Shown here piece by piece: positions 4,928-26,180 of a stretch of DNA of 64,000 bases. The translations under genes were made by a program, and so were the position numbers. Below the pieces are notes generated by a model that had not been told where the DNA came from, searched no databases, and saw nothing but the letters and a program-made list of their open reading frames with translations. The stretch covers positions 1-64,000 of the forward strand of contig PMLJ01000038.1 of the NCBI GenBank assembly GCA_003158855.1, written 5' to 3'. Source of the stretch: Acidimicrobiaceae bacterium. Its GTDB lineage: Bacteria > Actinomycetota > Acidimicrobiia > Acidimicrobiales > RAAP-2. Every line of letters starts with the position of its first letter. Within the stretch, counting starts at the first letter, position 1.

Positions 4928-5068
4928 TGTAAATGATGCTATTTCCTGTATTTAGGTACTCTTCTAGGGGACTCGCAGGAGAAATTTTGAGGAATCTGGA
5001 AATTTGCCCTGCTTATGAGTATACATATGCTACTCTGCGTCACAGAAACTTCTAGCGTAAGGGGTGGA

Positions 5069-8000
5069 ATGTCGCATCAGCCGAGTACAGGTAACAGAAT
5101 TCATCTACAATGGATATGCAAAAGTTTACTCGTTCCATTCATCTGTGTAGCTATGCTCGCTGCGGCAATCGGTATCGCCGCCGCCGCGAACACGACAGGT
5201 CCCGGTGACGGTACCTACGGCGGCTACTCCTCGCACTACTGGGGCGCCTACGTTCTCGACACCACCGATGGGACGCTCTACGGCTACTGCGTCGATCCCG
5301 GTCAGGCCAGCCCGGACAACCCAGCGATCACCCACGACACTTACACCGTCTCGACCGTCTCCAACGCCTCGGAAGCAACGCTCGGTTGGCTCGCCGCCCA
5401 GACAGGCAGTGGCGCACTCGGTCTGAGTGCGGACAATCTCGCCGGCGGAATCTCGATGGTCGCGTACAACACCTATGGAGGCGGCAGCATTGGCAGCGGT
5501 CCGGTGTCTGCCGCGTCGATCAGCACCGTGACCAACTTCATCGACAACTATCCCGGTACGTGGACCATTAGTGCGACGCTCCAGGCGGCGCCTGCGGGTG
5601 GTTACGTGGCCGGAAGGACCTACACCGGCGAGGTCCACGTCGCGGCCGGCAACGGCAGTGGTGTCCCCGACGTTCAGATCCTCAGTCCCGCCGTTGGCGG
5701 CGCGGGGGAGTTCAGCTCGTTCGCCTGGACGAACGCCACTACCGGCGGTGGCGGGAATGCGTCCTTCACGTGGACCGACAACAACGCCGGCGACTCCTTC
5801 TCCGCCAGCTTCACCTCGCGGTACGGCCTGCCTACGGGTGTCGCCGACCTTGACTTGGCTCCGACCGGCTCGGGTGGTCAAACCATGCTGCTCGGAATTA
5901 CGCGGAGTAACGCCTCAGCAACCGTTAGGGGTACGACTGCCACCGGAACCATTGTCGGCGCACCCGTCACGGTTTACTTGATCAAGGTGGCATCCGGCGA
6001 TGTTACGGACACTCCGATTGCCGGCGCGGTCTTCAACATCGCAAGTGCCAGCGGAACGGTGTTGTATACCGGTGTCACTACTCAGACAACTCCCGTTGAG
6101 ATCGATACTTTGATCGAGCCCGCTAACAACGGTGAGCCGATGCAACCCGACACCGTCTACGAAATGGTCGAGACGTCGGCACCTGCGGGCTACACGGTTC
6201 CAACGGACAACGTGACCTCGTTTACGACGCCTGCCAGCGGAGGAACGATGACGGTCACGGTGGCCGACCCGGCCTCAGTGGTGACGCCGCCTCCGCCACC
6301 GCCCAATACGGCGTCGGTGTACATGATCAAGACTTCGACAACCGATCCCACTGACACGCCGATCGCGGGCGCCGTCTTCAACCTGGCCGACGGCAGCGGC
6401 AACGTGCTGGCGACGGGCATCACGAGCACGACGTCCCCGCTAGAGATCGACCAACTCGTGTCCGGCGGTATGACTGATGGCTCGACCTACGAGCTCATTG
6501 AGACGGCGGCTCCCGTTGGCTACTACATCGCAGCGAACAACGTGACCACGTTCACGATTCCCGCCGGCGCGACCATCGACGAGGTAATCGTCGCTGACGC
6601 ACCGGTCCCAAGCCCAACAGTGGCGACGCAGGTCACTTCGGACAGTGGACTGCCGGGCACGGTCTTAAGCGACGTCGTCACGGTATCTGGCGACGACGGA
6701 GAGGCCGGTGTCATCATCGCAACGTTGTACGGCCCGGTGGCGCCGTCCGCCACGGGAAGTTGCCGCGACCTGACTCTCGCCCAGTGGGAAGCGGGAGCGA
6801 CCCAGACCTTCACGACCGATATAACCGGCAACGGTGCCTACACCATCACTGGCCCGACCTCAGCGTCGGCTGGTTGCTACGGCTGGAGCGACACGATCAC
6901 CCTGACTCCTTCGAGTACCACGGGCTCATCCTCACCCACCTCACCCACGGAATCGACCGCCATCACCGTGCCGGTCTACTTCGTCAAGGCGTCGTCCACT
7001 GACCCCACGGACACGCCAGTTGCCGGCGCGGTCTTCTCGTTAGCCGACGCCAGTGGCAACATTTTGGCGACGGGCATCACGAGCGCAACGACACCCGTGG
7101 AGATTGATCAACTCGTGTCGGGAGGAATGCCCGAGGGCGCGACCTACGAGCTCATCGAGACCCAGGCTCCCCCTGGCTACTACGTTCCAACCGGCAACGT
7201 GACGACGTTCACGGTACCGATGGACGCGACCGCGTACACGGTGCTCTCCATGGCGGCCACGACGTCAATTGCGCCGAGCCCCAATAATGGCGTTCGCCCC
7301 ACCGGCCAACTCTTCGCCGTCAGCTGTCCCAGCGCCACCACCTGCATTGCCGTCGGCATCGACAACTCTCAACAGGTCGCCACCTCCATTGGCACTCTGT
7401 CCGGTGGCACCTGGACCTGGAGCGCCGAGACCCAGGCCGGCAACGGCTACGGCGAACTCACCGCCGTCAGTTGTCCCAGTGCGACGTCGTGCGTCGCCGT
7501 GGGTTTCAACTCCAACCGAAACAACATCACCATTGCCGGCACTCTCTCCGGTGGCGCGTGGACCTGGTCCGCCGAGTCGCTGGTGCCCGGACAGAGTAGC
7601 CAGGGCGAACTCACCGGCGTCAGCTGTCCCACCACGACGACCTGCGTCGCCGTGGGATACGAAAGCAGCAACAACACCTACCAGAGCATCACTACCGTCG
7701 GCACGTTGTCCGGTGGCGTGTGGACCTGGACCACGCAGTCAGTCGTCACGCCCGACGCCACGGGCTACGGCCGGCTCAACGCGGTCAGTTGCCCCAGTGC
7801 GACGTCGTGCGTCGCCGTGGGTTACGACGGCAGCCTTCAAAACGGCAGTAACCAGTCCATCACTACTGTCGGCGCGTTGTCCGGTGGCGCGTGGACCTGG
7901 ACCACCGAGTCACCAGTTTCGGCTGACGCTTCCGGTGCGGGTTACCTCTACGGCGTTAGTTGTTCCACTGCGACAACGTGCGTCGCCGTGGGCTTCGACG

Positions 8001-10279
8001 CGGGCGCCCAGTCCATCACCACGTCGGGCACGCTGTCCGGGGGTAGCTGGACCTGGACAGCGGACACGGTCATCGTGCCGGACCCCTCCGGCTTCGGCGA
8101 CCTCTACGGGGTTAGTTGTCCCAGCGCGACCACCTGCGTCGCCGTTGGCCAGGACCCTTACGATCCCATCGCCACCGTGGGTACCCTGTCGGGCGGCACC
8201 TGGACCTGGAGCGCGGAGTCATCCGCTGTCGGTGATCCGACCACCGGCACCGGCTACGACCGGGGCGTCAGTTGTGCGAGCGCGACGACGTGCGTCGCCG
8301 TGGGCTACGACCGAGCATTCGGAGGCATCGCCAACGTCATGGAACTCCCACAAGGGCCAGTCACTGCACCAACTGCTGCGTACACCGTGACGGTCACCGA
8401 CCCGCCGATGCCCACGCCCGCGCTCTCGACGCAGGTCGGCGCACCGGTCGTGAGCGTCGCCACGACCGCCCTGACCGATACCGTCACCGTCTCGGGCGAC
8501 GACGGAGAGGCCGGAACAATCACCGCGACGTTGTACGGACCGGTCGCGGCGCCCAGCTCGATGAGCTGTGTTGACGTGACCCTCGCGCAGTGGGAGGCGT
8601 CGGCGAGCCAGAGCTACTCCGTTGTTATCACCGGCGACGGTCCCGTGGTGATCACTGGTGTCGTTCCCAACTCGACGGGTTGCTACGCCTGGGCAGAGAG
8701 CCTCACGTTGACCCCCTCGAACGCGGTGGCGACGTCCCTGCCCACGGTGCCTACCGAGTCGTCGCTGGTGACGATCCCGGTGTCGTTCGTGAAGGCGTCA
8801 ACGTTAGATCCCACCGACGCACCCGTAGCCGGCGCTGTCTTCACTCTCGAATCGAGCAGTGGCGTCGTGCTGGCGACGGGCCTCACGAGTGGCACGAGCG
8901 CCGTGGCGATCAATGTCCCCGGACTGTACTTCATGCAGGGTGCCACGTACGAGTTGGTGGAGGTCACGGCGCCCGCCGGCTACTACGTACCGACGAACAA
9001 CGTGACGACGTTCACGATCCCGAGCGGTGTGACCACCGACACGGCCCTGGTGCTCGACCCCCCAATGCCGACGCCGAGTCTCAGCTCACAGGTGAGTGCG
9101 TCGGACCAAGCGCCGGGCACCCGTCTTACCGACTCGGTCGTCGTCAGCGGTGACGACAGCGAATCCGGCCTCATCCAGGCCACGCTGTACGGGCCCGTGA
9201 CGCCGCCGGCCTCGATGAGTTGTAGCGACCTCTCGCTCGCAGAGTTCGAAACATCGCCCAGTCAGGTCATCACCGTTGGGATCAGCGGCAACGGCACCTA
9301 CAGCGTCATCGGTCCCGAGGAAACCGCGACGGGTTGCTACGCCTGGGCCGAGAGCCTGACCCTGGATCCTTCAGGTGCGGGTGCGTCATCATCACCCTTG
9401 GTAGTGAGTGAACAGACATTGCTTGCGGTCCCGGTGACCTTCACGAAGGCGTCTACCACTGACCCGACCGGTACGCCCATCGCCGGCGCGGTGTTCAACC
9501 TGGCGAACGCTAGCGGCAACATTCTGGCGACCGGCCTCGTGAGTGGCACGAACGCCGTAACGATCAATGTCCCGGGTCTCTACTTCATGCAGGGAGCGAC
9601 CTACGAGCTCATCGAGACCCAGGCGCCGCGTGGCTACTACATCGCGGGCAGCAACGTGATCACGTTTACGATCCCGGCGGGCGCGACGGCGTACAGCGTG
9701 CTCGCGACGGACCCACCTATACCGTTGCTGACACCGGCCTCGGTCGTGTCACATATCCGCACGAAGTATTTGACTCCCGGCGGCGGGGTGGCCGACAGCA
9801 TCGACGTGGCCGTCGATGACGGAGAGCCCGGCACAATTACCGGCACGCTGTACGGCCCCGTGGCGCCGCCAGCCTCGATGAGTTGCGCGGACCTGACGCT
9901 CGCCCAGTGGCGGGTGGCGTCCAGCCAAGTCTTCACCGCCGTGCTCGGCGCCGACGGTACCGGCACGGTGCTCGGCCCGGTACCAACGCAGGCCGGTTGC
10001 TACGGCTGGGCGGAGACGGTGACGCTGACGGCCTCGGGGGCGACCACGACGACGCCGCCCACGTCGACGAATGAGCAGGCGTTCGCCAGCGTCAGCGGCT
10101 CGGGTAAGGGAGTGGGTGGAACTGGTACGGGTCACTCAACGACGAATATCAACACCGGTGGTCCGGTGCCGGCCGGACTGAACAAGACGTTGCTGGCGAG
10201 CGGCCTGGCACTGCTTGCGCTGGCCGTGCTGTTGGTCGACATCGGTCGCAAGCGTCGAAACGCCAGGGGCCAGGAATGA
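5069..10279 (+). CDS. Giant modular sortase-anchored adhesin with Cna-B domains and a seven-repeat propeller-like part
   Basis: About 1736 residues. ATG 5069 is chosen over ATG 5015 because AAGGGG lies just before it and a membrane/signal segment (LLVPFICVAMLAAAIGIAAAA) follows soon after. The start of the mature part (5215-5500) has LYGYCVDPG, like the Cys of thioester adhesin domains. Then come five Cna-B/SpaA domains (about 5965-6265, 6316-6600, 6970-7250, 8780-9055, 9435-9710; TPIAGAVFNLA, YELIETxAPxGYY), four modules ending GCYxWAE (about 6610, 8410, 9065, 9740 onward), and seven SCPSATTCVAVG repeats (7305-8345). The C-terminus has a membrane helix and RKRR tail typical of wall-anchored proteins, but no LPxTG; NTGGPVPAG precedes the helix. 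It overlaps the sortase gene by ATGA. Being first in the transfer operon, it probably holds mating cells together. Confidence 0.75.
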   Translation: MSHQPSTGNRIHLQWICKSLLVPFICVAMLAAAIGIAAAANTTGPGDGTYGGYSSHYWGAYVLDTTDGTLYGYCVDPGQASPDNPAITHDTYTVSTVSNASEATLGWLAAQTGSGALGLSADNLAGGISMVAYNTYGGGSIGSGPVSAASISTVTNFIDNYPGTWTISATLQAAPAGGYVAGRTYTGEVHVAAGNGSGVPDVQILSPAVGGAGEFSSFAWTNATTGGGGNASFTWTDNNAGDSFSASFTSRYGLPTGVADLDLAPTGSGGQTMLLGITRSNASATVRGTTATGTIVGAPVTVYLIKVASGDVTDTPIAGAVFNIASASGTVLYTGVTTQTTPVEIDTLIEPANNGEPMQPDTVYEMVETSAPAGYTVPTDNVTSFTTPASGGTMTVTVADPASVVTPPPPPPNTASVYMIKTSTTDPTDTPIAGAVFNLADGSGNVLATGITSTTSPLEIDQLVSGGMTDGSTYELIETAAPVGYYIAANNVTTFTIPAGATIDEVIVADAPVPSPTVATQVTSDSGLPGTVLSDVVTVSGDDGEAGVIIATLYGPVAPSATGSCRDLTLAQWEAGATQTFTTDITGNGAYTITGPTSASAGCYGWSDTITLTPSSTTGSSSPTSPTESTAITVPVYFVKASSTDPTDTPVAGAVFSLADASGNILATGITSATTPVEIDQLVSGGMPEGATYELIETQAPPGYYVPTGNVTTFTVPMDATAYTVLSMAATTSIAPSPNNGVRPTGQLFAVSCPSATTCIAVGIDNSQQVATSIGTLSGGTWTWSAETQAGNGYGELTAVSCPSATSCVAVGFNSNRNNITIAGTLSGGAWTWSAESLVPGQSSQGELTGVSCPTTTTCVAVGYESSNNTYQSITTVGTLSGGVWTWTTQSVVTPDATGYGRLNAVSCPSATSCVAVGYDGSLQNGSNQSITTVGALSGGAWTWTTESPVSADASGAGYLYGVSCSTATTCVAVGFDAGAQSITTSGTLSGGSWTWTADTVIVPDPSGFGDLYGVSCPSATTCVAVGQDPYDPIATVGTLSGGTWTWSAESSAVGDPTTGTGYDRGVSCASATTCVAVGYDRAFGGIANVMELPQGPVTAPTAAYTVTVTDPPMPTPALSTQVGAPVVSVATTALTDTVTVSGDDGEAGTITATLYGPVAAPSSMSCVDVTLAQWEASASQSYSVVITGDGPVVITGVVPNSTGCYAWAESLTLTPSNAVATSLPTVPTESSLVTIPVSFVKASTLDPTDAPVAGAVFTLESSSGVVLATGLTSGTSAVAINVPGLYFMQGATYELVEVTAPAGYYVPTNNVTTFTIPSGVTTDTALVLDPPMPTPSLSSQVSASDQAPGTRLTDSVVVSGDDSESGLIQATLYGPVTPPASMSCSDLSLAEFETSPSQVITVGISGNGTYSVIGPEETATGCYAWAESLTLDPSGAGASSSPLVVSEQTLLAVPVTFTKASTTDPTGTPIAGAVFNLANASGNILATGLVSGTNAVTINVPGLYFMQGATYELIETQAPRGYYIAGSNVITFTIPAGATAYSVLATDPPIPLLTPASVVSHIRTKYLTPGGGVADSIDVAVDDGEPGTITGTLYGPVAPPASMSCADLTLAQWRVASSQVFTAVLGADGTGTVLGPVPTQAGCYGWAETVTLTASGATTTTPPTSTNEQAFASVSGSGKGVGGTGTGHSTTNINTGGPVPAGLNKTLLASGLALLALAVLLVDIGRKRRNARGQE
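7305..8345 (+). repeat. Seven tandem propeller-like coding repeats in the adhesin
   Basis: Units of about 145-170 bases start near 7321, 7468, 7619, 7786, 7957, 8110 and 8266. Each encodes V-S-C-x5-C-[IV]-A-V-G, then a GTLSGGxWTW strand. Seven units and a Cys pair per unit suggest a seven-bladed beta-propeller with one disulfide per blade. Confidence 0.75.
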
Positions 10280-10998
10280 GCATCCTTGCCCGAACGGCAG
10301 TGGCCTGTGCAGCGGCCGGCCTGGTGCTGGTGGGGGTGGCGGTCCTGAACCGCCCCCTCGCTAGTGCACCACTGGTGAAGCACCCCTTCTCACTGAAGAG
10401 CGCGGCCACGCTGCCCGTCCAACCTTCCGGTACGAAGGTAGTGGCCGATCACCTGGTGATTCCGTCGCTGCACGTTGACGCTACCGTGGTGACCACGTCG
10501 ATTGTGGATCACGAGTTGGTTATCCCGGGCGACGTGCACGACGTCGGCGAGTGGGGACGTCTGGCCAACGCGGGTACCACCATCGTCGCGGGACACATCA
10601 ATTGGGTCGGCCAGGGCCCCGGCGCACTGGGCGGTCTCGCGAATATTGCGCCAGGGGCGACCGTGTATCTGGCCAACCGGGCGGGCGTCGTGAGCGTGTG
10701 GAGCGTCGTAAGTCTCCGGGCGGTCTTGAAGAAGGATCTGCCACAGGCGCTGTTCGCGGCGGGCGGAGCTCGCCGATTGGTACTGGTCACCTGCGGCGGC
10801 GCCTTTAACGCGGCGACCCACCAGTACGCCGACAATGTCCTCGCTACCGCCGTGCCCGCGCCGGCGCGCGAGATGAAGATCGCCACCCGCACTGACGTGC
10901 CGGGGCAACTAGCCGTGAGCGTGGCGCAGGACTTTCCTCCCCCTTGGCCTGCGCCACGCCCGCGGAACCCTTCGGTCGAGATCGGGATGCGCGGGTGA
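10276..10998 (+). CDS. Class F-like sortase
   Basis: 240 residues. An N-terminal membrane helix (~8-25) anchors it outside-facing. The sortase core follows: LVIPSLHVDATV, IPGDVHDVGEW, then the catalytic His in AGHINW (H107) and the catalytic Cys in LVTCGG (C173), with FNAATHQYADNV after it as in class F enzymes. It joins a cleaved sorting signal to the cell wall. Start overlaps the adhesin stop (ATGA), so the adhesin is its evident substrate, although that protein lacks a classical LPxTG. The tail after ~residue 215 is Pro-rich and not part of the fold. Confidence 0.85.
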   Translation: MSILARTAVACAAAGLVLVGVAVLNRPLASAPLVKHPFSLKSAATLPVQPSGTKVVADHLVIPSLHVDATVVTTSIVDHELVIPGDVHDVGEWGRLANAGTTIVAGHINWVGQGPGALGGLANIAPGATVYLANRAGVVSVWSVVSLRAVLKKDLPQALFAAGGARRLVLVTCGGAFNAATHQYADNVLATAVPAPAREMKIATRTDVPGQLAVSVAQDFPPPWPAPRPRNPSVEIGMRG

Positions 10999-11648
10999 AG
11001 AAGGTTGCACTCCTGCTCGCGGTGCCCCTCGCGGTGTTCGTGGTGGCCCTCTTAGGCCTCGCCGTCCTGTTCGCCACGGTGGGCGGCACGGCCCAGGCCG
11101 CCGCGTGCACGCTGTCCACGCTGACGTCTTCGAAGACATCAACCACTTCGACTACGACGACACCGTCCTCGAACGCGAACTGTGGCGCGGCGGCGATCGC
11201 CACCCTGCCCACTTCGCCGGTCGTCAGTGACGGCCTGCCCGCGAACTACGTGATGCCCGCCGACGCGACGGCGGCCGAGACCGTGGCGATCACCTACGCG
11301 CTGGCCCAGCTCGGCAAGCCGTACCTCTGGGGTGGTGCCGGTCCCGCGGCCTTCGACTGCTCGGGCCTCACCATGATGGCCTGGGCACGGGCCGGCGTGT
11401 CGCTGCTGCACTACACCGGCGATCAGATCGGCGAAGGCACCGCCGTGACGTCGTACGCGGAGATAGCACCCGGTGATCTGGTCCTCGTGCCAGGCAGCGA
11501 CGGGACCGTCGCGAGCCCCGGACACGTGGGGATCTACGTCGGCGACGGACTCGTGGAGTCGGCGGTCGACGTGCAGTTCGGCGTCATTGTCCAGCCGTAC
11601 TCGTACTTCATCAGTGGCGGGCTCTCAGGGATTCGCCATGTGGGCTAA
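10995..11648 (+). CDS. Secreted NlpC/P60 peptidoglycan hydrolase of the transfer system
   Basis: 217 residues from GTG 10995, which overlaps the sortase stop as GTGA and gives a proper membrane/signal helix (VKKVALLLAVPLAVF). A Ser/Thr linker follows, then an NlpC/P60 domain: YALAQLGKPYLWGGAG, catalytic Cys in FDCSGL (C122), catalytic His in SPGHVGIYVG (H177). These enzymes cut gamma-D-Glu-diaminopimelate bonds in peptidoglycan. In type IV secretion operons such a hydrolase opens the wall for the channel, the role of VirB1. Confidence 0.85.
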   Translation: MKKVALLLAVPLAVFVVALLGLAVLFATVGGTAQAAACTLSTLTSSKTSTTSTTTTPSSNANCGAAAIATLPTSPVVSDGLPANYVMPADATAAETVAITYALAQLGKPYLWGGAGPAAFDCSGLTMMAWARAGVSLLHYTGDQIGEGTAVTSYAEIAPGDLVLVPGSDGTVASPGHVGIYVGDGLVESAVDVQFGVIVQPYSYFISGGLSGIRHVG

Positions 11649-15799: not shown

Positions 15800-16714
15800 A
15801 TGTCACGACGCAAAGACAAGGCAGCACAGCAGACCGAGATTGAACGACTGCGGGCGGCGATTGCCACGCCATTATTGGCCCGAGTGCCCGGTTCGCATCA
15901 CATCGTGGTCGCGTGTCCGAAGGGGGGCACCGGCAAGACCACCACGGCGGCGATGTTGGGGCTGAATCTCGCTGATGTGCGAGGCGAGATCGTGAGCGTC
16001 GTCGACGCCAATCCCCACATGAGCACGCTCCGTCGGCGCCTGGTGTCGCCCGCCGTGCCACCAACGCGTCCGTTCGTGGAGCTGTGCGCCCGAGCCCTCG
16101 ACGAGGACATCCTGCCCGAGTGGTCCGCTCTGGCGCCCTACACCGACGTGGTCGCTCGGTTGCGTGTGCTGAGCAACCAGACGGCCGACCCCGCAGAGGT
16201 CGAGAGTCTCACCTTCGCGGAGTTCGAGGCCGGCGTGGCGTTGCTGCGCCGCGCGGCCCAGATCGTCATCTCCGACATGGGTACGTCGTCAACTGGCCCG
16301 GTGGCCGTGGCGGCGATGGAGACGGCGAACACGCTCGTCTTTGCGACGGAGCTGGCGCAAGACTCCCTAGAGCTCGCGATTGAAATGGTCAGCGCTTTGG
16401 CCGGTCAACCGCTCAGCTACCGGCCCGATCCCGACGACTGGTCGGCCGTGTCGAACGGCCGGTTCGCGCATTTGGTGCAGGGCGCGATTGTCGCTATCGC
16501 GCCAGGTCGCGGCGACCGTGACCCCGCGGATCTCACCGCGCTGATCGATTGGCTTCGCGCCGTGTGCGGGGGCGGGGTCTTCATCATCAACAAGGACGAT
16601 CACCTGGCGTTGGGCGACCTGATTGTCCCGAGCGCACTGCAAAGCGAAACGACAATCGCGCACCTCGGCGTCGCCGCCGCCGTGGCCGCGAGGTTCCCAC
16701 AGGTCCAGGACTAG
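15800..16714 (+). CDS. ParA/MinD-type ATPase in the transfer operon
   Basis: 304 residues from ATG 15800, with AGGGG about ten bases before. A deviant Walker A motif, CPKGGTGKTTTAAMLGLNLA, has the signature lysine K41 and the P-loop lysine K46, defining the ParA/MinD/CpaE group. VDANPHMSTLRRRL is the usual metal-binding Asp segment, and IVISDMGTSS is the Walker B-like strand. These ATPases cycle on DNA or membrane as dimers to place DNA or complexes. Its location between the SCO6880-type and VirB4 genes, without a ParB partner, suggests it serves the transfer machine, not plasmid partition. Confidence 0.75.
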   Translation: MSRRKDKAAQQTEIERLRAAIATPLLARVPGSHHIVVACPKGGTGKTTTAAMLGLNLADVRGEIVSVVDANPHMSTLRRRLVSPAVPPTRPFVELCARALDEDILPEWSALAPYTDVVARLRVLSNQTADPAEVESLTFAEFEAGVALLRRAAQIVISDMGTSSTGPVAVAAMETANTLVFATELAQDSLELAIEMVSALAGQPLSYRPDPDDWSAVSNGRFAHLVQGAIVAIAPGRGDRDPADLTALIDWLRAVCGGGVFIINKDDHLALGDLIVPSALQSETTIAHLGVAAAVAARFPQVQD

Positions 16715-16717
16715 TCC

Positions 16718-17302
16718 GTGCTACCCGAGCTACCCCCGAGGCCAGAAGAGTGGAATCCCACTCCGCAACCGCCCGAACGTACGTGGACCCGACGGACGAT
16801 CTGGATGGCGGTGGGGGCCTCACTCGCGGGGGTGGTGGCGCTGTTCGTGATTGCGGCCTTGATCCACCCTGGGCTGACGCGCATCGTGTTCGAGTCGTCG
16901 CCGACCACTACGACAGTGCCTGCGGCTACAACCACCACCACTGCTACCACAACGACAACGAAACTGGCGAGCCGTCGCCCGTCAACGCCAGTAGTGCACA
17001 CGGTGACGACAACGACGACCCCGCGCGCGGTACATCAGATCAACGCGTCAATCGACGCGGGCTCGTCCAGCCCCGGCGAAGTGATGGTGACCGTGACGGT
17101 CACCACGGACGCAGGTCACGTCAGCGGGACGATCTACGGGACCAGCACGTCGGGCAACGCGAAAGCAACCTTTGCCGGACCGGTAACCGGCGGCACCGCC
17201 ACGTTCAACGTCACGCTCGCTCTCGAACTGCCCGCGTCGGTCTACGCGGTAGTGGTGTCGCCATCGGGCAGCGTGACCACCTCAACGGTTCCACTCAGTT
17301 AG
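16718..17302 (+). CDS. Membrane-anchored Thr-rich protein of the transfer operon
   Basis: 194 residues from GTG 16718. A Pro-rich cytoplasmic start (PELPPRPEEWNPTPQPP) precedes one membrane helix (~30-51, IWMAVGASLAGVVALFVIAALI). A long Thr-rich linker (~62-95) leads to a small beta domain (~105-194; VTVTVTTDAGHVSGTIYG, GGTATFNVTLALELPASVYAVVVSPSG) that resembles a short immunoglobulin-like fold. No family recognised. It is likely a wall-spanning part of the channel or a surface spike. Confidence 0.55.
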   Translation: MLPELPPRPEEWNPTPQPPERTWTRRTIWMAVGASLAGVVALFVIAALIHPGLTRIVFESSPTTTTVPAATTTTTATTTTTKLASRRPSTPVVHTVTTTTTPRAVHQINASIDAGSSSPGEVMVTVTVTTDAGHVSGTIYGTSTSGNAKATFAGPVTGGTATFNVTLALELPASVYAVVVSPSGSVTTSTVPLS

Positions 17303-17310
17303 GAGTTGAC

Positions 17311-19065
17311 ATGACCAAACGAGCCAAGCACTCTGTCGCCAGCCCTACGAGGGCACCGATCCCGCCGATCCCCGTTTTGGTCCAGGCACGAACGGAGCTC
17401 CAGGGGCCTCGTGCGCTCGCTCTTCCCAAAGCCCCTGGTTACGTTCGCGTACTCACGCCGTACTCGGCGCAAACCAAGCCAGTACAGGCGATCCTCGACG
17501 GAGGAAAGTCACTCGGTGGCGCCCTGTACAGCGGGTCGGACACTTCGCGACGCGAGAGGCGCGCTGAGGCGCGTGCGGCGGCGCAGATTTCGATGGCTGA
17601 CCGTGTGGCGGCCCGCGAACAACTTAAGGAGGTGAAGCAGCGACTGCGACGCGAAGCTGCAGCTGCCGCGTACCTGCCGAGAAACGGCGAGGACGGTGCC
17701 GACGCGCTGCGCACCTATCGAGCGCTGAAAGTGGAACCGCACAAGGCGACGAGCGAAGTCTTGGCCGGTGCGTACCCGTTCCTCGCCGAGAGTGGCCTCG
17801 GTAGCCAGGGCATCTTGATCGGACAAGACGCCTGGAGCGGCGCGGGCTTCGTCTATGACCCATGGGTGCTCTACCAGTTGGGGATTCTCACCAACCCGAA
17901 CTGTTTACTCGCCGGCGTGGTCGGTCGAGGCAAGTCCACCCTCGCCAAGGCCATCGCGACACGTTCCATTGCCTTCGGACGAAAGTGCTACGTGCCCGGT
18001 GACCCCAAGGGGGAGTGGACCGCCGTTAGTCGCAGTGTCGGTGGTCAGGCCATCGAGCTAGGTGGCGGGACCCAGGCACGCCTCAACCCTCTCGACGAGG
18101 GCCCGAGGCCCGAGTACCTGATAAGTCAGGACGAGGTGCGCGAACCGGTCACCGACACAGCGTGGTGCGAGTTGGTGCAACAGCGCCGCCGCGATCTGCT
18201 GCGGTCAATCACCGAAGCGGCACTCGGCCGGCCAATGGCGCCGGTCGAGTCGACCGCGCTCTACGCGGCCCTCGACGAGGCGGTGCGAACGAACAGCGTG
18301 CCGGTCCTTCCCCACGTGGTGTCGGCGATGTTCGACCCGCCGGGTGACGTGATCGGGTCCAGTCGCGCGCAGTTGCTCGACGACGGACGCGAGGTGGCGC
18401 ACGCGGTCAACCGGCTGGTCGGCGGGGACCTCGGCGGGCTGTTCGACGGGCCCTCGACGGTGCGCTTCGATCCGGATCTGCCCATGGTGAGCCTGGATCT
18501 CAGCCGCATTGCGGGTTCGGACGCGAAGATCGGCATGGTCATGACGTGCGCGAGCTCGTGGATGGAGGCGGCCCTGCAGGATCCCTCGGGCGGACAGCGC
18601 TGGGTGATCTACGACGAGGCGTGGAGGGTGTTGAAGCAGCCCGCGTTGCTCGCACGAATGCAGAGCCAGTGGAAGCTCAGTCGGGCCCTCGGCATCGCCA
18701 ACCTCATGGTGATCCACCGACTCAGCGACCTCGACGCCGTGGGCGACGCCAACTCCGAGGCACGCAATCTCGCCCTCGGCCTGCTGGCGGACTGCTCGAC
18801 CAAGATCATCTACGCCCAGGAGCGAGGCGAAGACGCCAAGACCGGTACGGCACTCGGACTGTCCTCGACAGAGATCGACCAGCTCTCCAGCCTGGCCCGC
18901 GGCGAAGGGCTCTGGCGCATCGGCGATCGCTCTTTTGTTGTGCGCCATATCTGCACGCCGGGCGAGCTCGCCCTGTTCGACACCAACCAAAGGATGGTTA
19001 TTAACCCCCGTGGGTTCAGCAATTCTGAAGCCTCTAACAGCGCGAACTTGAGGGTGGACGAATGA
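17311..19065 (+). CDS. VirB4/TraC-like conjugation ATPase
   Basis: 584 residues from ATG 17311, with TAGGAG six bases before. An N-terminal region with a basic coiled coil (~75-115) leads to the ATPase: FVYDPW, Walker A GVVGRGKST (K208), VPGDPKGEW, NPLDEGPRPE, Walker B WVIYDEAW and a VIHRLSDL sensor segment, all typical of VirB4 in Gram-positive and actinobacterial elements. It powers substrate movement or pilus assembly at the inner face of the membrane. The N-terminal VirB4 domain seems to be supplied by the SCO6880-type gene. The stop overlaps the next start (ATGA). Confidence 0.85.
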   Translation: MTKRAKHSVASPTRAPIPPIPVLVQARTELQGPRALALPKAPGYVRVLTPYSAQTKPVQAILDGGKSLGGALYSGSDTSRRERRAEARAAAQISMADRVAAREQLKEVKQRLRREAAAAAYLPRNGEDGADALRTYRALKVEPHKATSEVLAGAYPFLAESGLGSQGILIGQDAWSGAGFVYDPWVLYQLGILTNPNCLLAGVVGRGKSTLAKAIATRSIAFGRKCYVPGDPKGEWTAVSRSVGGQAIELGGGTQARLNPLDEGPRPEYLISQDEVREPVTDTAWCELVQQRRRDLLRSITEAALGRPMAPVESTALYAALDEAVRTNSVPVLPHVVSAMFDPPGDVIGSSRAQLLDDGREVAHAVNRLVGGDLGGLFDGPSTVRFDPDLPMVSLDLSRIAGSDAKIGMVMTCASSWMEAALQDPSGGQRWVIYDEAWRVLKQPALLARMQSQWKLSRALGIANLMVIHRLSDLDAVGDANSEARNLALGLLADCSTKIIYAQERGEDAKTGTALGLSSTEIDQLSSLARGEGLWRIGDRSFVVRHICTPGELALFDTNQRMVINPRGFSNSEASNSANLRVDE

Positions 19066-20825
19066 CCGCGCAGCGCGACAGCACTGACCTTTACCTCGGC
19101 CTGATTTTCGGTGCCATCATCCTCTTCCTGTTTCTCGCCGCCGGTGGCTTACTCTCGGCATTCTTCAGCGGCCACGGGTTCCCTACGCACTACACGAGGG
19201 GAGCGATCACCGCATTCGCGCACGCCGGCGATCCGTCGCTCGCGTGGAAGGTGCCGGTCGGTCCCGCGTGGCTGTACTGGACAATGACAACGATGGTCGT
19301 GACCGGTGGCATCGTGGGCACCGTGTTCGCAGTCCAGTTCGTGAAGCACGAGGGACACCGCAAGGCGGAAGATCCGACGCAGCTGCCTGGTCTCGCCGAT
19401 CGGCGCGACGTCATCTTTGCGGCCGGAGCGAAGCACCTGCTGACCCGGGGCCCAGTCCTGCGGCCGTCCATTGTGAAGCCGGTACCGAACGATCTGGGGT
19501 TCTTTCTGGGGACAAGTCGCCGCTCCGACTGCTTCGCTAGTGTCGAGGACTCCATGGTCATTCTGGGTCCCCCGCGAAGCGGCAAGGGATACAACCTGGT
19601 CATCCCCTTCATCCTCGATGCGCCGGGTGCGGTGGTCACCACCAGCACCCGGCCGGACAATCTGGCCGCCACGATGACCGCACGCGCAAGGCGCGGTCCG
19701 GTGGCCGTTTTTGATCCGCAGGGCCTCGCGAGAGGGGTCACGGGAGCGTTGCGCTGGTCACCCATCAGGGGCTGTGAGTCCCCACAGACGGCGATGCTCA
19801 GGGCGAACGCCCTGTGCGCGGGCGCCGGCGCCGGAATCACCGACGGAGGATTCTGGATCCAGCAGACCAACACGGTGGTGCGATGCCTGCTGCAGGCGGC
19901 CGCCCTCGACGGGCGCACGGCCGTTGATCTCTATCGGTGGAGTCTGTCGGCGCCGGCGGCCAGTCAAGCGGTCAGCGTGTTAGCGGAGTCACCCGGCGCC
20001 GCCCCCCTGTGGTCACAGGCCCTCGATGCGGTCATTACCGCGGACCAGCGCCAGCGCGACAGCGTGTGGTCGATCGTGAGCACGGTCTTTGGACCGTTGG
20101 CTGATCCTCGAGTGGTGGCGCAACTCACGCCAGCCTTGGGCGAGGAGTTCCACCCCGCGCAGTTCCTGCGCGATTGCGGGACGCTTTACCTGCTGGGCAC
20201 GGCGGCCGGGGCCTCGGCCACCGCGAACTTCGTTTCGGCCCTGATTGAAGACGTGGTGGAGACCGCGCGCCAGGTAGCCGGCGCGTCAGTGGGCGCGCGG
20301 ATGGACCCGCCGCTGGCCCTCATCTTGGACGAGGCGGCGAACTATCCGCTGCCGTCGCTGGGGGCGCTCATGAGCGAGGGTGGCGGCACGGGCATTGCCA
20401 CCGTTGCGGTGCTGCAGTCGCTGGCCCAGGCGCGAGCTCGCTGGGGTCACGACAGCGCCCAGGCGATCTGGGACTCGGCCATCGCCAAGGTGATCCTCGG
20501 CGGATCGAGCAACGCCAGTGACCTGCGCGACATCGCCCAGCTAATCGGCGAGCGCGACGTTCAGGAGGTGTCGATCTCGCACCAGTCCGGCGGAGGCCGC
20601 AACATCAGCGAGTCCACGCGCCAGCGCGGGATTCTCGACCCCAGCATGATCCGTTCCATCAAGGTCGGCCACGGCCTGCTGATGCTGCGCGCGGCCGCGC
20701 CGATCATGCTGACGTTGAAGCCCTGGACTGCGCGCGCCGACGCGGCCGAGCTGCGAAGGGATCGGGCCGCCGTAGAAGAGACGCTGCGCCTCGGCGCGGC
20801 GACGAACGGGGGTGTCCATGCCTAG
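19062..20825 (+). CDS. VirD4/TraG-like type IV coupling protein
   Basis: 587 residues. Two N-terminal membrane helices (~9-33; ~70-92) are followed by a large ATPase domain: Walker A GPPRSGKGYNLVIP (K175), VTTSTRPDNL, VFDPQGLA and Walker B ALILDEAANYPLPSLGALMSEGGGTGIA, with VLQSLAQARARWG after it. This is the TraM-recognition/TraG build of coupling proteins, which bind the relaxosome DNA complex and feed it to the channel. It overlaps VirB4 by four bases. A coupling protein without a visible relaxase in the window is noteworthy. Confidence 0.88.
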   Translation: MTAQRDSTDLYLGLIFGAIILFLFLAAGGLLSAFFSGHGFPTHYTRGAITAFAHAGDPSLAWKVPVGPAWLYWTMTTMVVTGGIVGTVFAVQFVKHEGHRKAEDPTQLPGLADRRDVIFAAGAKHLLTRGPVLRPSIVKPVPNDLGFFLGTSRRSDCFASVEDSMVILGPPRSGKGYNLVIPFILDAPGAVVTTSTRPDNLAATMTARARRGPVAVFDPQGLARGVTGALRWSPIRGCESPQTAMLRANALCAGAGAGITDGGFWIQQTNTVVRCLLQAAALDGRTAVDLYRWSLSAPAASQAVSVLAESPGAAPLWSQALDAVITADQRQRDSVWSIVSTVFGPLADPRVVAQLTPALGEEFHPAQFLRDCGTLYLLGTAAGASATANFVSALIEDVVETARQVAGASVGARMDPPLALILDEAANYPLPSLGALMSEGGGTGIATVAVLQSLAQARARWGHDSAQAIWDSAIAKVILGGSSNASDLRDIAQLIGERDVQEVSISHQSGGGRNISESTRQRGILDPSMIRSIKVGHGLLMLRAAAPIMLTLKPWTARADAAELRRDRAAVEETLRLGAATNGGVHA

Positions 20826-21482: not shown

Positions 21483-22007
21483 ATGGCCGTAGCGACTACA
21501 TGGACAGTGCACCACCGGTGCGGGCACGATCAGGACCACGACCTGTCGAAGAAGCCGCCGTCAGAACGCACGGGTCTGGCGCATTGGCTGGGCCAGCGCG
21601 ACTGCTCCGCGTGCTGGCGCGCCGGGCGCGGAGAGAACCAGGCCAGGGAAGAGTGGCTCGCCGAGCAGCGCTCCAAAGAGTCGACGGAGATTGACGTCTG
21701 GGAGCGCCGGACGCAAATGCCCGAGCTCGTGGGGACAGAAAAGGCGGTCGCCTGGGCGGCGCGCGTGCGTTACACGCTGATGGGCGAGGCCTACGACTGG
21801 CGCGTCGACCGCGAGTGGTCCGAGGAAGAGTTCGTCGTACGGCTCGAGGCACCAGCGCGCGAGCGTGCAAGCGCCTCGTGGTGGATCGACCAGCGAGACA
21901 GCGCCCCCGAGGACCTCGAAGAACTGTTGACCGACGGCGTGTCCACGGGTGACGCAAGGTTCGCACCGGATGACGGCGAACCGCCCTTCCCGGAGGTGGC
22001 GACGTGA
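21483..22007 (+). CDS. Unknown protein with N-terminal Cys/His cluster
   Basis: 174 residues with AGAAGGAGA eight bases before the ATG. The first ~45 residues carry HHRCGH and, 25 residues on, DCSACW, a spacing that suits a small zinc-binding ribbon. The middle (STEIDVWERRTQMPELVGTEKAVAWAARVRYTLM) is Trp-rich, and the C-terminal third is strongly acidic. No family recognised. It may bind DNA or a protein partner; it lies between the DUF4913-like gene and the ArdC-like fusion. Confidence 0.55.
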   Translation: MAVATTWTVHHRCGHDQDHDLSKKPPSERTGLAHWLGQRDCSACWRAGRGENQAREEWLAEQRSKESTEIDVWERRTQMPELVGTEKAVAWAARVRYTLMGEAYDWRVDREWSEEEFVVRLEAPARERASASWWIDQRDSAPEDLEELLTDGVSTGDARFAPDDGEPPFPEVAT

Positions 22008-22168
22008 AAGCCCGGCTTGGTGGCAGTTTCGTGCGCCATTGCGCGGAGAGCGCTTCGCTGGCGCCAGCGGGCGCGTTGGCCCGCACCGGCCACCTCGAAA
22101 GCCCATTCTCCCCGTGCGAAGCGCTGCCAGGAACCGAAATGGGCGGAAACGGAGTAGCTGATGAGTGA
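22004..22168 (+). CDS. Small reading frame of 54 residues bridging two genes
   Basis: GTG 22004 overlaps the previous stop as GTGA, with GGAGGTGG upstream at about 21991-21998, and the frame ends eight bases inside the next gene. The product (VKARLGGSFVRHCAES start) is unknown. The start overlap and ribosome site make translation credible. Confidence 0.4.
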   Translation: MKARLGGSFVRHCAESASLAPAGALARTGHLESPFSPCEALPGTEMGGNGVADE

Positions 22169-23903
22169 GATTGTCGCCCTGACCGTGGAAGGCAAGGAGC
22201 GCGAATACCACGTTCTGGTCGTCAACGGCGCCCCGCAACTGGTCGGCTACGGCGTCAACTTGTCAAACGCCGACCTCTCGGGTGCAGATCTCCAGGGACT
22301 GGACCTGTCGTTCGTGAATCTGCAGGCTGCCAACCTTACGTTCGCCAACCTGTCGGGTTGCAATCTGTCCTTCGCCGACCTCTCGGGTGCGCAGGCGGTT
22401 GGCGCCGACCTGCGAGGCTCAACCCTGCGCGGAGCGGTCACACTCGATGCGAGCCTGACCGGCGCCGACCTGCGGGGGGCGACCTACGACAAGCGGACGG
22501 TTCGCGGTGCCTTCATCAGCGACGAGCTAACGCCGGAGTACTTGCGCATGCTGGGCATTCCTGCACTGGTCGATTTGGCGGGAGCGGAGGATTCGCAGTC
22601 GCGGTCTGATCAGGCTGCCGAGTTGGAGGAGCAGATCGCCCTGCTCGAGGCGAAGGCGGCAGCCGCCGACGAGTGGAACGACAGATTGGCAAAGCGAAAA
22701 GGCGAAGCCGAGAGAGGGCTAATCGCGCTCGATCAGAACGGTGTCCTGGCAGACACTCCGTCGGTGTATGTCTCAACACCGCCCACCCAACTCAACGAAC
22801 CACGAGGAGGTCGCATGCGCGACTATTCAGGACTGCTCGAAGGACTCAGCGCCGGCATTGCCGACCTCACGACCAGCGAGAAGTGGACGCAGTACCTCGA
22901 CGTGCAGAGCAAGTTCTATCGCTACAGCCCCAACAACGTCATGTTGATCCTGATGCAGAACCCCTACGCCACCCGGGTGGCGGGCTACCGGGCCTGGCAG
23001 GCACTGGACCACCAGGTCATGGCCAAGGAGTCGGCCCTTCGGATACTGGCTCCGATGACGTACAAGAGGGACAACGCGCCCGAGGGTGAAAAGGCCCGAG
23101 AGATTCGCGGCTTCAAGTTGGTGCCGGTGTTCGACATCAGCCAGACCGAGGGGCCGGACCTGCCCGACATCGTGAGCAAGCTTGAGGGACTCGCGCCCGA
23201 GGGGGTGTTCGCCAAGCTCACCGAGTTCGCGGAAGGTATTGGCTTTCGCGTCGAGCGACCGCAGTCGTTGGAGAGCGGGGCGAACGGCGACACCTCCCAC
23301 TCAGAGGGGCGAATCCGAGTGGTGAGCACCAACTCCGAGGCCCAACAGGCGAAGACCTTGGCCCACGAGATCGGTCATGCTCTCCTGCACGATCCCGTAG
23401 CTGAAGCGACCAAGGACCTGGAGCGGGGGCTCAAGGAGCTCGAAGCCGAGTCCACGGCCTACGTCATCTGTACGGCGCTCGGCATGGATACGAGCGACTA
23501 CTCCTTCGGGTACGTGGCGGGCTGGGCCGGTGGTGCCCCTGAAGCCACACAGGGCATCAAGGCATCGACGGGGCGGATCCAGAAGGCCGCCACGGCGGTG
23601 TTGAAGGCCTTCGAGGTGGAAGAACCTGTCGTCGAAGCTACGAACGATGTCAGCATAGAAATGGCCGCTGAGCGCTCGGCTGACGTGGACGCAATGCTCC
23701 GCACGGGCGAGCGCCGGACGGAAGATCTGGTCGAGCTTGAGCGCATCCAAGAGTTCGCCGACACGTCCGACGGACACGTCCAAGTGGTTACGGTCGATCT
23801 CTCACTGCGCGACACCTCGATGAGCAACTACCGGCCACTCTCGGCGCGGGAACTCGACGTCATGGGTGCTCCTGCCGATGTGTCGCTCGAATTCGGTCTT
23901 TGA
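22161..23903 (+). CDS. Pentapeptide-repeat protein fused to an ArdC-like antirestriction metalloprotease
   Basis: 580 residues. Residues ~34-108 are about fifteen pentapeptide repeats (NADLS GADLQ GLDLS, later FANLS, GADLR), which fold as a right-handed quadrilateral beta-helix; in MfpA and Qnr this shape mimics DNA. A coiled linker (~155-185) follows. From residue 219 the protein resembles ArdC: DYSGLLEGLSAGIADL, W..YL..QSKFYRYSPNNVMLI, GYRAWQALDHQV, then a zinc-protease motif HEIGH (H402, E403, H406) and an E-rich helix with ESTAYVICTALG. ArdC proteins bind ssDNA and protect incoming plasmids from restriction. GAGGAGG before ATG 22815 could also start the ArdC part alone. Domain fusion is seen; the antirestriction role is inferred. 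Confidence 0.72.
   Translation: MSEIVALTVEGKEREYHVLVVNGAPQLVGYGVNLSNADLSGADLQGLDLSFVNLQAANLTFANLSGCNLSFADLSGAQAVGADLRGSTLRGAVTLDASLTGADLRGATYDKRTVRGAFISDELTPEYLRMLGIPALVDLAGAEDSQSRSDQAAELEEQIALLEAKAAAADEWNDRLAKRKGEAERGLIALDQNGVLADTPSVYVSTPPTQLNEPRGGRMRDYSGLLEGLSAGIADLTTSEKWTQYLDVQSKFYRYSPNNVMLILMQNPYATRVAGYRAWQALDHQVMAKESALRILAPMTYKRDNAPEGEKAREIRGFKLVPVFDISQTEGPDLPDIVSKLEGLAPEGVFAKLTEFAEGIGFRVERPQSLESGANGDTSHSEGRIRVVSTNSEAQQAKTLAHEIGHALLHDPVAEATKDLERGLKELEAESTAYVICTALGMDTSDYSFGYVAGWAGGAPEATQGIKASTGRIQKAATAVLKAFEVEEPVVEATNDVSIEMAAERSADVDAMLRTGERRTEDLVELERIQEFADTSDGHVQVVTVDLSLRDTSMSNYRPLSARELDVMGAPADVSLEFGL
22804..22817 (+). promoter_or_regulatory. Internal ribosome binding site and ATG inside the fusion gene
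   Basis: GAGGAGG (22804-22810) sits four bases before an in-frame ATG (22815) exactly where the ArdC-like part begins. This would give a second product of 362 residues without the pentapeptide part, or it may be the fossil start of a once separate gene. Confidence 0.5.
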
Positions 23904-23913
23904 AAGGCAATAA

Positions 23914-24441
23914 ATGACCAATCCAATCTCACTGGTCGTCACCTACGACCCAACGTTAGAGAAGTTCTCCGTCGACGTTGACGCCACGGCGTTGCTCTTT
24001 CCCGACGGGCTGTACATCGATGACGACACGCAGTATTGGTCGGAAGAGCCCCTTGCCATAGAAGACGTAATGGACCGGCTGACTGTTCAGCTGAGTGCCC
24101 CATCAGCATCCACTGCTCTTCGAGGTGAGGATTCGGTCTCGATCTCGACGAAGTTCATTGAACTCGCGCTGAACATCCTTGATCCCGATTTGAAGTGGGA
24201 CGCGGAAGAGACGCTGGAGGTAAGCGACGCAGCAGGCAGATTCCTTAGGAAGTATCCGATCACCGAATGGGAAATTGAGGGTGCATTTGGGCTAGCCGTT
24301 CAGTTCGTTCACGATTGGGCAACGGGCGAATACTCCAATTCCGTTCCCACCAATGGGCCAGCATCTGTCTTCACACCGAGCAGCGATCACGACCTCGATG
24401 TCCTTGACCTCGTCATTGATGAAGGTCCCACTTTCGAATGA
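23914..24441 (+). CDS. Very acidic unknown protein
   Basis: 175 residues, of which 35 are Asp or Glu and only eight Lys or Arg. No membrane segment, signal or known motif is visible; the central part (STKFIELALNILDPDLKWDAEETLEVSD) may be helical. It follows the ArdC-like fusion by ten bases, with GAAAGG before it. Small acidic proteins next to antirestriction genes on mobile elements are often DNA mimics that block host nucleases, so this is a candidate, but the charge alone does not show it. Confidence 0.55.
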   Translation: MTNPISLVVTYDPTLEKFSVDVDATALLFPDGLYIDDDTQYWSEEPLAIEDVMDRLTVQLSAPSASTALRGEDSVSISTKFIELALNILDPDLKWDAEETLEVSDAAGRFLRKYPITEWEIEGAFGLAVQFVHDWATGEYSNSVPTNGPASVFTPSSDHDLDVLDLVIDEGPTFE

Positions 24442-24475
24442 GACACGTTTCCGCTATCTACCGAAAGGAGTTGCA

Positions 24476-24790
24476 ATGACAATCAACGAGCCAGTTGAGT
24501 TCATCGACCCCCTAAAACAGTCCGAGCGGGCCCATGCCCTAACTGCCGTGCCCGCGACGATCGGTCTTGCCGAGGCTGCCTTGATTCTTGGCATCGCCAA
24601 GAGCACCGCGTGGACGATGTACTCGCAGGGTACTTTTCCGTTGCCAGTGATCAGGATAGGGACACGCATTCGTGTCGTGAGGGTCCATATTCAACAGTTC
24701 TTGGAGACCGGAGAGCCCGTCACCTTTGAGTCGGCCACCGCCTCTCCTGTCGCATTCGAGCCAGCGGCCCGAGAGTCAAACGCTGGTTGA
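24476..24790 (+). CDS. Excisionase-like helix-turn-helix protein
   Basis: 104 residues from ATG 24476, with AAAGGAG six bases before. Residues ~28-80 form a MerR/Xis-type helix-turn-helix (IGLAEAALILGIAKSTAWTMYSQGTFPLPVIRIGTRIRVVRVHIQQFLE). Such proteins bend attachment-site DNA and direct the integrase to excise. Its last 15 bases overlap the end of the convergent integrase gene, the usual xis-int neighbourhood. Confidence 0.75.
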   Translation: MTINEPVEFIDPLKQSERAHALTAVPATIGLAEAALILGIAKSTAWTMYSQGTFPLPVIRIGTRIRVVRVHIQQFLETGEPVTFESATASPVAFEPAARESNAG

Positions 24791-26008
24791 ACCGCGGCCC
24801 ATCTTCTTGACGGGCTTGATCGTTTTCGCGACCTTCTTAGCCTTGACGTCCGCCGCGGGTTTGTCTATGGGGGGCGATTCTCTCTCTGTCCGTATGTTGC
24901 CCATCACCGCAGCGGCGTCCTGGTCGCTCGCCTCGACGAAGTGCGTGTAGACCGACAACGTAGTTGACGGGTTCGCATGCCCCAGTCGACCGGCGACTGT
25001 GCGCACCGGTATGCCCGCGGTCATCATTCGAGTCGCGGCGAAGTGGCGCAAATCGTGCAGACGCATGTTGTCAAAACCGAGAGCGTCTCGCACTGCTTGG
25101 AACTGCTTGGTGATGGTCCCTGGGGTCATCGCAATGAGGCAGTCTGGCTCACGGGAGAACACGTACGCATTGGCCACGATCTTCATGCCAACCTGTTTCG
25201 CCCGATCTGTGACGATGGCTTTCTGTGCCTCGAATACCGCGAGCGTGTCGGGGTCGAGCGAGATACGACGTTCTGCGTGGGTCTTAGTGCTCTTCTCTCT
25301 GATCCCGCCCGGCACTTCGGCAATCGAGCGCTCGATGGTGAGGGTCATGCGCTTCGGATCAAGGTTGCTCCAACGAAGCGCGCACATCTCTCCTCGGCGC
25401 GCACCGGTCGACGCGGCGATGTGCAAGAAGTGGCCCAGTTCGGGGTTCTGTCGCCGTGTGTAATTGAGCAACTCATCAACCTGAGTCGCATTAGGCGGCG
25501 AGAGTTTGGGCTTGGTCATCCGAGGCGGGGTGACGTTGGCAGCGGGGTTGGTCGCTATCCAACCCAAGATAACGGCCTGACGGAGCGCCCGTCTAATGAT
25601 GGCGTTGATTTGGCGCACCGTTGTGGGCGACAGTCCGATCTGATTGACGAGTCCTCGATAGAGCTGATCCAGGTCGTCGGTGGTGATCTTATTGACCGGG
25701 CGATCTCCGATGGCCGGGAAGATCCTCACCTTCAGTTTGTTCCGATAACCACGAAGAGTCGTCGGGCTTAGATCGTCTTCGACGAGGTCAAGCCACTTGT
25801 TGGCGAGTTGCTCGAAGGTCGCCGACGTGCCGTCGTAACGACCGGACTGGGCCTCGGCAACCAGGGCATTGAGCCTCTGGCGAGCTTGGGTCTTACTGCC
25901 GCGAACCGTCTTACTCAACTGGCGATTCCTGCCAGTGACTGGATCGCGGCCGGCCATGAACCTGACCTCCCAGACGCCAGGCTCCTTTTCTCGCAGAGTT
26001 CCGCTCAC
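24776..26008 (-). CDS. Tyrosine site-specific integrase
   Basis: 410 residues. An N-terminal AP2-like arm-binding domain (GVWEVRFMAGRDPVTGRNRQ) is followed by a SAM-like core-binding domain (~63-150) and the catalytic domain, with Arg in TGARRGEMCALRW, HDLRH, GHANPSTTLSVYTHF (His/Trp-box and nucleophile Tyr). A Lys-rich tail ends the protein. It is the phage-type integrase that inserts this element; the gene start is ~100 bases from the CCA end of tRNA-Lys, the expected target. Confidence 0.92.
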   Translation of the reverse strand: MSGTLREKEPGVWEVRFMAGRDPVTGRNRQLSKTVRGSKTQARQRLNALVAEAQSGRYDGTSATFEQLANKWLDLVEDDLSPTTLRGYRNKLKVRIFPAIGDRPVNKITTDDLDQLYRGLVNQIGLSPTTVRQINAIIRRALRQAVILGWIATNPAANVTPPRMTKPKLSPPNATQVDELLNYTRRQNPELGHFLHIAASTGARRGEMCALRWSNLDPKRMTLTIERSIAEVPGGIREKSTKTHAERRISLDPDTLAVFEAQKAIVTDRAKQVGMKIVANAYVFSREPDCLIAMTPGTITKQFQAVRDALGFDNMRLHDLRHFAATRMMTAGIPVRTVAGRLGHANPSTTLSVYTHFVEASDQDAAAVMGNIRTERESPPIDKPAADVKAKKVAKTIKPVKKMGRGSTSV

Positions 26009-26104: not shown

Positions 26105-26180
26105 TGGTGGGCCGCCCGGGTCTCGATCCCGGCACCTTGGGATTAAAAGTCCCCTGCTCTTCCCGATGAGCTAGCGGCCC
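26105..26180 (-). tRNA. tRNA-Lys (anticodon TTT), with encoded CCA
   Basis: On the minus strand GGGCCGC pairs perfectly with GCGGCCC, the D stem is GCTC/GAGC, the anticodon loop is CTTTTAA, and the T stem is CCGGG/CCCGG, with ACCA at the end. Two oddities: the first anticodon-stem pair is G-A, and the T loop is ATCGAGA, with A in place of the near-universal T54. Its 3' end faces the integrase, so it is the probable attachment site. Confidence 0.88.

Follow-up and report, generated by a model that had tools for sequence, protein, structure and literature searches.

A pentapeptide-repeat domain fused to an ArdC-family protein on a putative actinobacterial conjugative element, with a predicted nested start

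Analysis of a window of 64,000 nucleotides (the whole stretch of DNA studied) from an Acidimicrobiaceae bacterium revealed a gene joining a pentapeptide-repeat domain to an ArdC-like metalloprotease, in an architecture that recurs within the genus. We read its product as an ArdC-family establishment protein carrying a short N-terminal β-helix as a docking adaptor, with two inferred translation products, and we give this reading a probability of roughly one half. What is new is a predicted nested start, preceded by a strong Shine-Dalgarno (SD) match, that opens the ArdC part; the initial annotation mentioned neither this start nor the repeat-free orthologues that occupy the same slot in related elements.

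The ArdC family aids the survival of incoming DNA in a new cell. The initial annotation proposed that the fused protein would protect entering DNA of a conjugative element both by mimicking DNA and by covering single-stranded DNA. The fusion, its ArdC kinship and the conjugative setting all held up, whereas DNA mimicry did not find support.

Domains and predicted structure of the fused protein

The gene (22161..23903, + strand) is a single unbroken reading frame from the ATG at 22161 to the stop and codes for a protein of 580 aa (62.4 kDa). Three Pfam profiles exceed their cut-offs, in the order pentapeptide repeats (PF00805, 86 bits against 20.2, E = 1.2e-24), ArdcN (PF08401, 27.8 bits against a gathering value of 22.6; residues 245-324, 22893..23132, + strand) and Peptidase_M78 (PF06114, 29.9 bits against a gathering value of 22; residues 377-433, 23289..23459, + strand). 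The PHROGs family phrog_7245, "anti-restriction protein", spans residues 243-496 (E = 5.9e-13). The zincin motif HEIGH lies at residues 402-406 (23364-23378); H402, E403 and H406 are invariant among 54 aligned proteins, and E426, E428 and E430, which correspond to the glutamate helix of the ArdC family, are each at least 90% conserved in the same alignment.

Upstream of the ArdC part, an N-terminal cap with three predicted β-strands (residues 1-30; 22161..22250, + strand; block pLDDT 74-87 in an AlphaFold2 model of residues 1-184) precedes a pentapeptide-repeat β-helix of about four coils (residues 31-117; 22251..22511, + strand) and a poorly conserved linker (residues 118-218; 22512..22814, + strand) made of a short helix, a long helix at about residues 148-183 and a low-confidence region. 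Residues 31-115 divide into 17 pentapeptides, the final few imperfect, and block means of 86-94 at residues 31-110 of the same model follow the three strands; the repeats and their β-helix, both asserted in the initial annotation, are thus retained. A full-length AlphaFold2 model had a mean pLDDT of 69.1 and a pTM of 0.52, which leaves the placement of the domains relative to each other uncertain. In this model, pLDDT reached at least 90 in 15 of the 27 ten-residue blocks of residues 221-490 and fell below 50 for residues 180-219 and the tail at 488-580.

When the full model was compared with the PDB using Foldseek, the ArdC protein of the IncW plasmid R388 ranked first (6i89, E = 4.3e-8, TM 0.57 by target length, rmsd 6.5, about 20% identity), followed by designed solenoids and MfpA. 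The fused protein is therefore predicted to have the R388 ArdC fold, and the ArdC-like part with its HEIGH motif, as first annotated, agrees with both the profiles and the structural match. Like R388 ArdC (PDB 6i89, 6sna), it places ArdC-N before an M78-like zincin on a conjugative element. R388 ArdC, however, is 297 aa long (PMC7213743) and devoid of a repeat domain, whereas the fused protein adds 218 residues of β-helix and linker and, in contrast to R388 ArdC, a low-confidence tail. The polyvalent proteins likewise arrange several domains around ArdC-N and a metallopeptidase on conjugative elements, but ArdC-N is described as often N-terminal in them (PMC5512222), while the repeats lie ahead of it here; their Pfam model MPTase-PolyVal (PF18818) scored 17.8 bits on the fused protein, under its cut-off of 27.5.

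Under the mimicry model, the β-helix would act as a decoy for nucleases of the host or for gyrase, with single-stranded DNA being covered by the ArdC part, and the repeats do share the right-handed quadrilateral β-helix of MfpA and Qnr; pentapeptide-repeat proteins of the PDB match the repeat model at Z 12-17. Against mimicry, the helix has only about four coils, roughly 85 repeat residues compared to NCBIfam model lengths of 183 for MfpA and 211-221 for Qnr, and its net charge in seven homologues is a nearly neutral −2 to −5 across 88 residues. MfpA itself is an electronegative dimer linked by C-terminal helices. The MfpA and Qnr models scored 32.3 and 24.4 bits, far from their respective cut-offs of 360 and 240, and we regard mimicry as quite improbable. 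The best NCBIfam profile was that of Alr5209 (E = 2.6e-21, 75.8 bits, short of its cut-off of 125); this short cyanobacterial repeat protein and NP275 resemble the repeats in size and fold (Z of about 15) but stand alone.

Estimates of dN/dS, several of which involve dS values above 1, were 0.13-0.37 for the repeats and 0.09-0.82 for the 30-residue N-cap (11 comparisons each), 0.08-0.17 for the ArdC part (7 comparisons; another, over just 16 codons, gave 0.39 and was set aside), 0.39-0.74 for the linker (8 comparisons) and 0.24-0.61 for the tail (5 comparisons). These values indicate that the repeats are maintained, and point to purifying selection on both the repeats and the ArdC part, with a loose linker. 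Because the β-helix is nearly neutral, short and far from the MfpA and Qnr cut-offs, a protein-docking module is favoured, and its putative role as an adaptor draws on the lack of charge and on the selection.

Recurrence of the fusion and its conjugative setting

Among 99 genomes of the genus, the source included, 21 yield a match with E ≤ 1e-25, and the fused gene is present in no fewer than nine. Five of these genes are complete (G000, the source, and G023, G050, G109 and G029), one is truncated by the end of its contig (G046), and in three (G005, G106 and G039) runs of N are the sole interruption; an apparent frameshift in G039 and apparent separate genes in G106 were rejected, both being such runs. 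Nine is a minimum since three further genomes (G008, G025 and G137) have an ArdC match at a contig edge or too partial for the fusion state to be decided. The fusion is not a sequencing artefact, a possibility that the initial annotation had raised. Two observations concern other ArdC copies: G109 holds a decayed one with four internal stop codons (contig C5, 107685-108263), and the source genome encodes a second, repeat-free homologue (59% identity) on another contig (C50, 2957-3748), whose start has a strong SD match (−11.4 kcal/mol).

In wider samples, which overlap, ArdC matches were present in 68 out of 397 genomes from the order, 32 out of 396 from the phylum and 48 out of 172 from the family. 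The loci read outside the genus were the listed matches with open frames longer than 450 aa, some shorter ones and one additional genome (G075). Across 167 loci scanned, HExxH and at least six pentapeptide matches coincide in 18 frames 250 aa or longer, all within fused loci. A scan of genome_contigs with two ArdC peptide patterns, which distant independent fusions could escape, found 47 loci encoding a relative; the fused form is present in eight, all of them labelled as Acidimicrobiaceae bacterium MAGs. No single place spans 80% of the fused query in any of the 2354 matching plasmid records or 261 phage records, and viral_contigs gave two weak, partial matches. Pentapeptide proteins of Corynebacterium phages, which match residues 3-134, were dropped as a source of the repeat domain because pairwise alignment yielded pentapeptide similarity without a clear common N-cap. 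The fusion is thus a recurrent architecture of a known family, seen in one genus only in this analysis.

The initial annotation's remark that it knew of no described fusion of this kind was consistent with the literature searched, mostly titles and abstract openings. A search of largely open-access papers for ArdC together with "pentapeptide repeat" returned none, nor did the titles and abstract openings listed for broader searches mention an ArdC/pentapeptide fusion. The word "pentapeptide" is absent from the main text of PMC5512222, and among the matches listed, one paper, on an esterase (PMC11033087), contains both "ArdC" and "pentapeptide".

The surrounding DNA has the hallmarks of an integrative conjugative element of soil actinobacteria, as judged from its gene content: an integrase beside a tRNA gene, a VirB4-like ATPase and VirD4 are all present, in keeping with the conjugative setting first proposed. 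Upstream of the fused gene lie genes for an adhesin, a sortase, an NlpC/P60 protein, SCO6881-like and SCO6880-like proteins (64.7 bits, far under the cut-off of 325, and 388 bits, above 60, respectively), a MinD/ParA-like ATPase, the VirB4-like ATPase (17302..19065, + strand, part of ORF 16549-19065) and the VirD4/TraG coupling protein identified by Pfam (19062..20825, + strand). Next comes a 174-aa gene (21483..22007, + strand; phrog_16123, E = 1.3e-8). Downstream are a gene for a 175-aa protein (23914-24441) that comes after ArdC whether the repeats are present or not and has no match in Pfam, NCBIfam, PHROGs or PADLOC, an HTH ORF (24353-24790), a tyrosine integrase identified by Pfam (24776..26008, − strand) and a tRNA-Lys gene (26105..26180, − strand), the probable attachment site. 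The integrase/tRNA-Lys order is repeated in G050 and G115, and contig C19 of G050 has the same overall layout at tRNA-Lys.

Pfam identified no relaxase in the set of window proteins searched against it, and the end of the tRNA-Lys gene has no repeat in the window, which begins at contig base 1, nor an exact second copy in the source genome. Contigs C38, C47 and C25 of that genome carry six more sequences that match the 3′ end of tRNA-Lys with 2-3 mismatches; these would be other tRNA genes or attachment sites. Within 5015-11648, a protein of 1754 aa that contains five SpaA prealbumin-like segments is followed by the sortase and the NlpC/P60 protein, and together they are likely a surface adhesin set of the element.

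A predicted nested start at M219

The linker ends in CGAGGAGGTCGC-ATG, and this M219 opens the ArdC part. A nested ORF starting there (22815..23903, + strand) would encode ArdC alone, a predicted second product of 362 aa (39.5 kDa), and duplex scoring and conservation mark an SD-like GAGGAGGT ahead of it (22804..22811, + strand). In 26 window ORFs chosen by hand, AGGAGG at −15 to −4 precedes one of 170 internal in-frame ATG codons, namely M219. Scored as a duplex with ACCUCCUU, which we take to be the anti-SD sequence (the 16S tail lies outside the window), the site reaches −11.9 kcal/mol and ranks first of 582 internal in-frame ATG/GTG codons, compared to −6.1 kcal/mol for the gene's own start at 22161. 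The sites ranked 2 and 7, at codon 18 in the integrase ORF (24776-26008) and codon 42 in the HTH ORF (24353-24790), suggest that translation truly begins there and that both ORFs as called are overlong. Those ranked 3 to 6 are internal to the adhesin, dehydrogenase and TraG genes, where a start would not be anticipated, and presumably arise by chance; since four of the seven best internal sites are of this kind, a strong SD-like match can be fortuitous.

Conservation bears on whether the fused polypeptide is instead the sole product, the nested SD being a relic of a stand-alone gene or a by-product of RGGR codons. A start codon is present at the site in 7 of 9 fused genes and missing in two (G046 and G106), RG is conserved in the five aligned fused proteins, and no clear extra synonymous constraint exists at the nested start (among amino-acid-invariant codons, 3 of 12 vary at codons 214-226 compared to 168 of 430 overall), all of which suit a single product. 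On the other hand, six fused genes keep the SD and ATG at −11.3 to −11.9 kcal/mol, the SD core and ATG staying in G109 and G039 while neighbouring codons change silently, and G029 retains an SD with GTG (−8.4 kcal/mol) despite different residues. The same start codon is used by 6 of 12 repeat-free orthologues; the other six start one codon upstream, one of them having an earlier start option as well. We consider a single product the less probable alternative, if one of some weight, and the nested start at M219 to be probably in use; the gene may thus make two proteins, full-length PPR-ArdC and ArdC alone.

Possible loss and possible role of the repeat arm

A repeat-free ArdC fills the same module slot in 11 loci, the module copies being 61-74% identical, with one partial copy at 83%. 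Of the eight loci that allow a decision, six have the gene at 21483-22007 beside the fused gene (it is absent in G029 and G106; the tally leaves out G023, whose contig begins too late), and it is found in none of the 11 repeat-free module loci. Contig C18 of G115 has a near-identical integrase (98%) and HTH protein (90%) at tRNA-Lys, but its conjugative module is more distant, and the ArdC in it lacks repeats and is 74% identical over query residues 209-580. In this case, modules appear to have been exchanged between integration cassettes.

A single clade of fused ArdC cores was not rejected on the protein tree (AU p = 0.067) but was rejected on the codon-partitioned tree (AU p = 0.0016), which groups the fused G029 with the repeat-free G048 and G115 (UFBoot 100); both trees label G025 repeat-free although its frame is open at a contig edge. 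Since the seven aligned repeat domains have common caps and core, the pattern is better explained by repeated losses of the N-terminal module, or by recombination at its border, than by repeated gains. The 5′ half of G115 aligns across the start of gene 21483 to five fused loci (44-58 compared to shuffle maxima of 26-29), an alignment that is partly the common end of the preceding gene. For G048, which has a run of N, two of eight comparisons placed the 5′ half above the shuffle maximum, and the tally was the same for the 3′ part in G115 and in G048; evidence for a deletion scar in these repeat-free loci is weak.

The repeat domain could also serve for translocation, or as a header, linking ArdC to the transfer machinery so that the protein accompanies the DNA, given that the fused gene lies shortly downstream of the coupling-protein gene and that ArdC-N is proposed as a header coupled to delivery (PMC5512222). 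However, in 11 module loci this slot holds a repeat-free orthologue, so the domain would be dispensable for the system, and production of R388 ArdC in the recipient suffices (PMC7213743). We find this unlikely, and prefer a docking adaptor. As described in PMC7213743, R388 ArdC carries a non-specific ssDNA-binding domain and is required in the recipient against HsdRMS, and our best guess, by analogy, is that this broad role would extend to the fused protein. HsdR_N is present in 18 of the 99 genomes of the genus: five of the nine fused carriers have it, compared to 13 of the remaining 90 (Fisher p = 0.009), with genome size an obvious confounder.

Under the adaptor reading, the gene would yield full-length PPR-ArdC and ArdC alone, the ArdC part would bind entering single-stranded DNA of the element and, like R388 ArdC in recipient cells, blunt restriction by the host, and the near-neutral β-helix, rather than mimicking DNA, would dock a protein partner and draw part of the ArdC pool there. 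Candidate partners are a host nuclease, gyrase and the element's own transfer apparatus. More tentatively, nested translation could provide two antirestriction isoforms, with the β-helix arm lost or swapped between elements at the internal start. If so, elements could switch the target of their ArdC via exchange of the arm at that start.

Conjugative elements often encode ArdC-type proteins, yet the way in which these beat restriction is unsettled: the protease activity of R388 ArdC is dispensable in the recipient against HsdRMS (PMC7213743). With an added binding domain, closely related repeat-free versions in the same slot and a probable start for two products, this family offers a natural comparison for finding the target of ArdC. 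Annotation of such fusions as one protein may overlook a second product.
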